Source: Actinomycetes bacterium
GTDB taxonomy: Bacteria; Actinomycetota; Actinomycetes; Nanopelagicales; Nanopelagicaceae
Direction of reading: 5' to 3'
NCBI GenBank assembly: GCA_025363635.1
Contig: JANYDL010000087.1
Coordinates: forward strand, 1-39,304
Length of the DNA stretch: 39,304 bases
Shown here in pieces: positions 38,144 to 38,569 of the stretch (position 1 is its first letter; each line of letters begins with the position of its first letter). The notes under the pieces were generated by a model. It was not told the DNA's origin. It did no database searches and saw only the letters and a program-made list of their open reading frames with translations. The position numbers and the translations under genes were made by a program.

Positions 38144-38178
38144 AAAAGGAAAGAGCCCCGAGTTTCCCCGAGGCTCTT
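38144..38178 (-). terminator. minus-strand terminator downstream of the tRNA-like gene
   Basis: On the minus strand a ten-base-pair stem with one U-G pair (38178-38169 with 38160-38151) precedes TCCTTTT. It lies about 78 bases beyond the 3' end of the tRNA-like gene. Confidence 0.78.
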
Positions 38179-38198
38179 GCTCAATTTCTCGAACTACT

Positions 38199-38234
38199 AG
38201 ATCAGTACCAATAGATCAGTACCAATAGATCAGT
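38199..38234. repeat. 14-bp tandem repeat, about 2.6 copies
   Basis: The unit AGATCAGTACCAAT occurs twice in full (38199-38212, 38213-38226) and is followed by AGATCAGT. It lies between the tRNA-like gene and its terminator. Purpose unknown; probably slippage. Confidence 0.9.
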
Positions 38235-38255
38235 TGGAGAACGTGAGACTGCGGT

Positions 38256-38328
38256 GTTGCCGACGGGATTCGAACCCGCATCGTACGATTGGCGGAAACG
38301 CATGTGCTACCAATTACACCACGACAAC
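38256..38328 (-). tRNA. tRNA-like gene, isotype not assignable
   Basis: Read on the minus strand, 73 bases form a seven-pair acceptor stem (GTTGTCG with CGGCAAC, one G-U), U8, a D-arm GTGT/GCAC with AATTGGTA loop including GG18-19, and a perfect T-arm GCGGG-TTCGAAT-CCCGT. The anticodon arm does not fold normally: stem positions 27-31 (TGCGT) and 39-43 (AATCG) pair at only three of five sites, and the loop by standard numbering is TTCCGCC, giving nominal CCG (Arg) with an unusual C37. No CCA is encoded; the next base is A. It may be a degenerate tRNA, a noncoding tRNA-like RNA, or a tRNA with an odd anticodon arm. Confidence 0.55.
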
Positions 38329-38410
38329 ATCGCCCGTGAATCCGGCCTACTTTCCAGTAAGTGGCATTTTCCGAAGTTGATGCTTGTGGAAACCTTCGGT
38401 GAGTGAATGG

Positions 38411-38445
38411 AAAAAAAGGGACCCGAGGAAATCCTCAGGTCCCTT
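38411..38445 (-). terminator. minus-strand terminator below the Nudix gene
   Basis: A 13-pair stem (38445-38433 with 38428-38416 read on the minus strand) contains one U-G pair that is a C-A mismatch on the plus strand, so it is oriented for minus-strand transcripts; seven or more T follow. It is 174 bases beyond the Nudix stop, leaving room for another transcript. Confidence 0.88.
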
Positions 38446-38490
38446 AATTCGCCAATCGTAAGATGCACCGAAAGTATGGCGCAAAACTCT

Positions 38491-38569
38491 GTTACTCAGA
38501 GTAGCGAACTCTTTTTTCGCATTCCGCGATTTACTGAGAGGCATTTGCTTCCAATTACAAGGCTTCAAT
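38491..38569 (-). other. diverged tRNA-like sequence, possible relic or small RNA
   Basis: Minus-strand sequence related to the tRNA-like gene at 38256-38328: 35 of 51 bases match without gaps (38518-38568 against 38277-38327, my count). The D-stem is TTGT/GCAA instead of GTGT/GCAC, a compensated change, and a T-arm-like AGAG-TTCGCTA-CTCT is retained. The acceptor stem does not pair well and U8 is lost. It sits between the Nudix stop and the terminator at 38411-38445. Confidence 0.35.

Follow-up and report, generated by a model that had tools for sequence, protein, structure and literature searches.

In type I pairs of the hok/sok kind, a cognate antisense RNA holds a toxin mRNA, several divergent copies occur per genome, and the outcome is addiction. 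YrlA and other bacterial Y RNAs carry a tRNA-like domain in a longer small RNA; they are tied to a Ro-type protein and are not known to have an antisense partner. In part of a published account, the type VIII system CreTA is described as a pair in which both partners are RNA, with a toxin RNA linked to tRNA and translation and an addiction logic (PMC12737573). In the same part, CreA resembles a crRNA, depends on Cas6 and Cascade, and acts as a repressor of the creT promoter, and CreT acts via a strong ribosome-binding site and rare AGA codons (PMC12737573).

We analyzed a window of 39,304 nucleotides from an actinomycete of the family Nanopelagicaceae. The live feature at the locus is a two-RNA unit, RNA A and RNA B, both predicted genes on the minus strand. 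As in what is described for CreTA, both partners are predicted RNAs, the proposed toxin RNA has a link to tRNA and translation, and we propose an addiction logic; in contrast to that description, RNA A is predicted to pair with RNA B itself, no Cas protein takes part in the proposed working, and RNA B is a cloverleaf rather than a mini-mRNA. The unit shares with the hok/sok kind a cognate antisense RNA and several divergent copies per genome, which fits addiction, but the target RNA B is a structured non-coding RNA, and RNA A lies upstream on the same strand instead of opposite to it. RNA B resembles the Y RNAs in having a tRNA-like domain within a longer small RNA and differs from them in being paired with an antisense RNA. 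The features are as follows, with the start of RNA B placed at the conserved first base of the extended acceptor stem and the transcript ends predicted.

38518-38568, minus strand: element 2, a decayed remnant of an RNA B copy, from its 5′ part (35/51 identity, 7.0 bits in covariance model R1, best match L053)
38492-38504, minus strand: palindrome CTACTCTGAGTAA, located in the -35 region of RNA A; shares bases with the supposed T-arm of element 2 and precedes RNA A in relatives
38473-38478, minus strand: -10 element CATACT of RNA A, conserved in relatives; predicted promoter
38411-38466, minus strand: RNA A, short antisense-type RNA of about 56 nt, start placed from the -10 element (match 38410-38478, 34.4 bits, in covariance model R2, which was built from 38 sequences with this RNA A among them)
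38449-38465, minus strand: seed of RNA A complementary to RNA B (sequence complementarity, cofold)
38411-38443, minus strand: intrinsic terminator of RNA A (sequence, scripted terminator scan)
38385-38393, minus strand: GTTTCCACA box upstream of RNA B, resembling a DnaA box; the family keeps this motif at about -60 and -77
38147-38333, minus strand: RNA B, tRNA-like, predicted to start at 38333 and to end in a U-tract near 38147 (R1 match 38204-38333, 126.6 bits)
38253-38328, minus strand: tRNA-like cloverleaf of RNA B with a non-canonical anticodon arm (ARAGORN "tRNA-Ala(cgc)"; Rfam tRNA, 50.4 bits)
38278-38294, minus strand: stretch of RNA B complementary to RNA A in 16 of 17 bases, spanning the anticodon loop, the 3′ anticodon stem and beyond (sequence, cofold)
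38200-38231, minus strand: hairpin(s) forming the second domain of RNA B, with loop TATTGGTA present in tandem; predicted to make a kissing contact with the anticodon loop (loop R and hairpin Y covary, 103 copies)
38147-38178, minus strand: intrinsic terminator of RNA B (sequence, fold)

The flanks of relatives follow one plan on one strand: palindrome and -10 element, RNA A with its terminator, a spacer of ~80-110 nt, RNA B with its second hairpin, and a terminator. The kissing hairpin of the window RNA B is tandemly duplicated (14-nt repeat, 38200-38233), a duplication absent from the other 16 copies of the first alignment.

The original prediction concerned an ungapped match of 35 of 51 bases, and this match is confirmed exactly (minus strand 38568-38518 against 38327-38277). 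Its identity was reached by 0/300 dinucleotide shuffles of the intergenic region (closest shuffle 30), and 33 is reached nowhere else in the window. The exchange in the D-stem and the AATCG common to both copies are likewise present, but AATCG, described as unpaired, is part of the stretch predicted to be paired by RNA A. The two copies had been read as possibly a pair of small tRNA-like RNAs, each followed by its own terminator. The minus strand does hold two short predicted RNA genes, with ends near 38411 and 38147, and two terminators (38411-38443 and 38147-38178), but the first of these terminators belongs to RNA A rather than to element 2, and the second RNA is of the antisense type, not tRNA-like. 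The T-stem GAG/CTC proposed for element 2 (38499-38511) does not stand, as it overlaps the 13-bp promoter palindrome of RNA A; half of the supposed structure of element 2 is the promoter of another gene.

Stems that covary in relatives, as had been suggested, are seen for RNA B, whereas element 2 scores only 7.0 bits in its covariance model (38504-38560), compared with 126.6 for the window RNA B. Among family members, L053, the nearest relative of the window RNA B, aligns best with element 2 (local score 44), and against a subset of 26 Bs element 2 scores 40 (shuffled maximum 35). Based on this low score and the alignment to L053, sequence comparison identifies element 2 as a real but decayed 5′ fragment of a copy of the tRNA-like RNA. 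A second live tRNA-like RNA was considered and rejected for element 2, given its 7.0 bits, its relic identity of 35/51 and its best match to L053. It is extremely improbable that the locus holds only two decayed, functionless tRNA genes. That description is true of element 2 itself and is kept for it only; across many genomes, RNA A and RNA B are strongly constrained, both in structure and by each other, which refutes it for both RNAs.

RNA B has a conserved structure. In 17 MAFFT-aligned copies, 86.2% of cells in the named structure are paired, compared with 78.2 in shuffled and at most 45.6 in slid versions, and the covariation score is 0.310 (0.162 shuffled, 0/500). Double changes occur in 14 pairs, located in the acceptor stem including its three-pair extension, in the anticodon stem, and in the second hairpin's outer stem; RNAalifold provided an independent structure prediction for the alignment. 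The predicted kissing pair joins the base before CC in the anticodon loop to the base after GG in the second hairpin, and is A-U in 78, G-C in 20, G-U in 2 and a gap in 3 of 103 copies. With the partner slid by -3 columns, 99/103 copies are still pairable, so the weight of the kissing evidence is on the A-U/G-C exchange and not on the count. The same position changes in RNA A too: TTGGT occurs with ACC and TTGGC with GCC in nearly all rows of the A/B table, which leaves out four duplicate loci (L190, L191, L193, and L194).

Compared with tRNA (RF00005), RNA B has a cloverleaf with a 7-bp acceptor stem, a D-arm, and a T-arm with a TTCRA loop, and it keeps the D- and T-loop consensus. ARAGORN detects it, and Rfam sees only "tRNA" there. 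It differs from tRNA in lacking a 5-bp anticodon stem with a 7-nt loop and any single anticodon; instead, the anticodon stem runs into the loop, leaving a short loop around RCC (TTTCCGCCAAT in the window). Its acceptor stem is also lengthened, by one mismatch and three further pairs; it has a predicted kissing 3′ domain, its own terminator, and an antisense partner, and it is patchy and mobile. The extension covaries, so the 3′ end of RNA B would lie in a helix, which argues against aminoacylation or a free CCA end. In a Planktophila subfamily (L068:8081-8209 and similar copies), the acceptor stem contains G3:U70 and is followed by ACCA. G3:U70 and A73-CCA are identity elements of alanine tRNA. 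ARAGORN found no tmRNA in the window or in loci L001-L017.

Could RNA B be a working tRNA with an odd anticodon arm, tuned by RNA A? The ARAGORN and Rfam calls, the conserved D- and T-loops, the G3:U70 and A73-CCA of some copies, and the ACCA after the acceptor stem in Planktophila copies speak for this. We consider it very unlikely, because RNA B has no standard anticodon loop and is dispensable: at a strict cut-off, 219/296 genomes of the order are without a strong copy. The helical 3′ end and the missing single anticodon also count against it. In the complete genome G062, 39 tRNA matches were found in addition to its RNA B.

The 5′ end of RNA A complements RNA B in one of two places, the anticodon loop and 3′ stem (class i) or the acceptor 3′ strand and tail (class ii). 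In the window, the A:B cofold gains 10.0 kcal/mol over the two RNAs apart, with RNA A opening the cloverleaf in the predicted fold, and among 49 As the window's own is predicted to bind its RNA B best. Cognate duplexes average -29.4 compared with -20.0 for all other combinations (0/20000 permutations) in 49 of 54 loci; the remaining five have no recognized A terminator at the usual distance. The own B ranks best in 25/49 loci and the own A in 18/49, partly because the set contains near-identical units.

At loci with a single A, the variable heptamer pairs 7/7 in 42/54 cases (32 by Watson-Crick pairs alone), with a permuted mean of 2.6 and maximum of 9. At loci with two As, exactly one is cognate in 20 of 22, both in one and neither in one, with G-U pairs allowed. 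These heptamer counts cover Bs with a recognizable CCAA loop and exclude eight A hits that were only antisense images of a terminator. By a looser criterion, a cognate run of at least 10 Watson-Crick pairs lies upstream of 94 of the 98 Bs with complete upstream sequence; five more Bs, outside the 98, are cut by contig ends. Two of the four Bs without a cognate A (L067 and L030:665) are visibly damaged, with a broken T-loop and a large D-arm insertion, L173 is one pair below the threshold, and L049 looks mostly intact; greater damage in these Bs is not significant (p = 0.09, n = 4). The private heptamer is diversified over 55 B types. The specific pairing of RNA A with its own RNA B is evident as sequence complementarity, RNA-like conservation is present in both, and we infer that both are transcribed.

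The unit has conserved control elements. The RNA A palindrome TTACTNCGAGTAA has 10 matches in 14 genomes, 9 of them at an RNA A by position (one of class ii), and 7 genomes have none. One palindrome copy (G064:C1:17508-17520) is away from any detected RNA A. Near -60 or -77 of RNA B, a TTATCCACA-like motif resembling a DnaA box matches in at least 7 of 9 positions at 48/54 loci, where about 12 are expected. Upstream of RNA B, the motif occurs at two positions that are fixed and lie 17 bp from each other (38385-38393 in the window and the spacers of relatives).

These elements may also belong to a non-toxic regulatory pair. In such a pair, RNA B would be a functional tRNA mimic, for example a Y-RNA-like RNA or a decoy that engages RNase P, a synthetase or some other protein that binds tRNA, and RNA A would be a dedicated antisense switch under a palindrome-binding regulator. 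The anatomy and pairing data fit equally here, and conservation of the palindrome at A promoters and of the boxes before B suggests that expression of both RNAs is controlled. We nevertheless regard this as a rather unlikely account: nothing in the role of a dedicated regulator requires a private heptamer that varies over 55 B types, orphan antisense genes that match other units, or travel as a cassette.

RNA B rarely stands without a cognate A, whereas RNA A often stands without B. There are 20 extra As in two-A loci and 9 without a downstream B, together carrying 16 distinct heptamers. Twelve of these 16 match some B fully (9 by Watson-Crick pairs alone), compared with a shuffled-letter mean of 0.8 (0/5000). 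For example, the solo A L071:14143 fits the B of L145/L068 and the solo A L081:3015 fits the B of L163. Solo A genes also occur in arrays of the rnpB repeat described below. Judged from these sequence matches, orphan As would fit immunity, but also loss of B from former pairs; they may be remnants of units after such loss, which is expected under any function of A and B.

Units were found in 77/296 genomes of the order and 9 of its 17 genera (E<=1e-13), in Ca. Planktophila and relatives. In the window's genus, 14/21 genomes have a strong copy and 7/21 do not at this cut-off. The first DNA search found similar loci in 10/41 genomes, all in the window's genus of 21. When the GTDB collection was searched with one exact pattern, the named matches were Actinomycetota of fresh water or groundwater, Ca. 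Planktophila lacus MMS-21-148 among them (25 loci); some records are labeled "Bifidobacterium breve" or "Ferrovum" MAGs, which we take as submitters' labels. Outside the window's family, no sampled genome of the class scores above about 66 bits, and 13 genomes score 61-66, just above ordinary tRNAs. In a search for a protein partner, no family was present in more than 8/40 neighborhoods.

Integrative elements use the 3′ ends of RNA genes (tRNA and tmRNA att sites). The variable cassettes here similarly have their start precisely at the 3′ end of an RNA gene, which they restore, but this gene is rnpB, and in many cassettes there is nothing besides the two RNAs. Direct repeats of CCGGCTTATAGGGCGACTCTTCTTTA, the 3′ end of rnpB, bound the units in Planktophila and some relatives; the gene itself (RF00010 at L068:7550-7901) is present in 6/10 loci scanned, of which L008 and L026 are the same place. 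By hand count, the rnpB-end repeat is on both sides of 38/103 units, usually at about -200 (one A) or -290 (two As) and at +52, and a second repeat type is on both sides of 5/103. The window unit has neither type (11 or more mismatches). The complete genome G051 is without a unit, and its similarity to relatives stops exactly at the rnpB end (L217:2445), which marks rnpB as an integration hotspot. In a variable island of many Planktophila-like genomes, copies of the rnpB 3′ end follow one orientation (L068:7878-7903, with further repeats in L070-L087), and rnpB thus serves tandem cassettes as an attachment site. Another dispersed repeat, GGCAACCCCACTAATCGTTAATACAACCC (L048, L049, and L195-L206), borders units and other cassettes in a groundwater genus; no Rfam RNA gene was found there.

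A phage origin was rejected, based on 0 viral-contig matches to one exact pattern and no match of Planktophila unit L071 in 50,697 phage records, although these were pattern or BLAST searches and could miss distant phage forms. Mini-cassettes with direct repeats, together with the excess of DnaA-box-like motifs at about -60 or -77, would be expected if the unit controlled copy number or replication of a minimal mobile element, as RNA I/RNA II do for ColE1. RNA B would then prime or license copying, RNA A would repress it, and the paired TTATCCACA-like boxes would bind DnaA. This seems improbable to us: RNA A lies upstream on the same strand and not opposite RNA B, the neighbors include no recurrent replication protein, the copies are chromosomal, and the one pattern and the one unit searched gave no match in viral contigs and phage records, respectively.

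We estimate a probability of slightly under one half (about 0.48) that the locus is an RNA-only, type-VIII-like addiction or immunity module in which RNA B is harmful and RNA A is the antidote. This reading is based on mutually specific pairs, Bs that rarely occur without A, As that often occur without B, orphan As that fit other Bs, and mini-cassettes at integration sites. Our preference stems from three features: a private and diversified specificity, As that outlast Bs, and a mobile unit that is protein-free. Computation shows the fold of RNA B, its covariation, the cognate complementarity, the orphan matches and the cassette borders, whereas transcription, neutralization by strand invasion, the harm done by RNA B and its target are inferred. 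Against it, the Bs of L049 and L173 look mostly intact yet have no perfect A, and a strong copy is absent from 7/21 genomes of the genus.

A more detailed version is correspondingly more tentative. It holds that the unit is a selfish or immunity module with a toxic tRNA mimic B, a kissing-dependent fold and a hypervariable antisense A, carried in ~400-bp cassettes at the rnpB 3′ end, with orphan antidotes that protect against the modules of other strains. In the main reading itself, RNA B would mimic a tRNA through its cloverleaf, extended acceptor stem, and second hairpin kissing the anticodon loop, and may interfere with a tRNA-handling machine, such as RNase P, a tRNA synthetase or the ribosome. 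RNA A would be transcribed upstream of RNA B from its own promoter. Its 5′ end (TTGGY) may imitate the kissing hairpin and continue through the hypervariable heptamer, which is predicted to complement no 3′ anticodon stem except that of its own B. Through strand invasion, RNA A would break the kissing contact and open the cloverleaf (in the second class, the acceptor stem), thereby inactivating RNA B.

Literature searches for "Planktophila" with tRNA-like, for tRNA-like/antisense/RNA toxin, and for Nanopelagicales RNA/toxin-antitoxin returned nothing describing such units, and by title there was no rnpB integration or genomic island of this kind in these bacteria; most subscription journals were outside the scope of both. 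The two-RNA system thus looks undescribed, although this does not prove its absence in print. The "tRNA" calls made by Rfam and ARAGORN in these genomes include non-tRNAs, which is a warning for annotation. If the addiction or immunity reading is true, the units would provide RNA biologists with a natural set of some 55 variable pairing types, and would show a tRNA fold turned into an RNA effector that another RNA switches off. Some of the most abundant freshwater bacteria would then have a protein-free conflict system with its specificity in seven variable bases.
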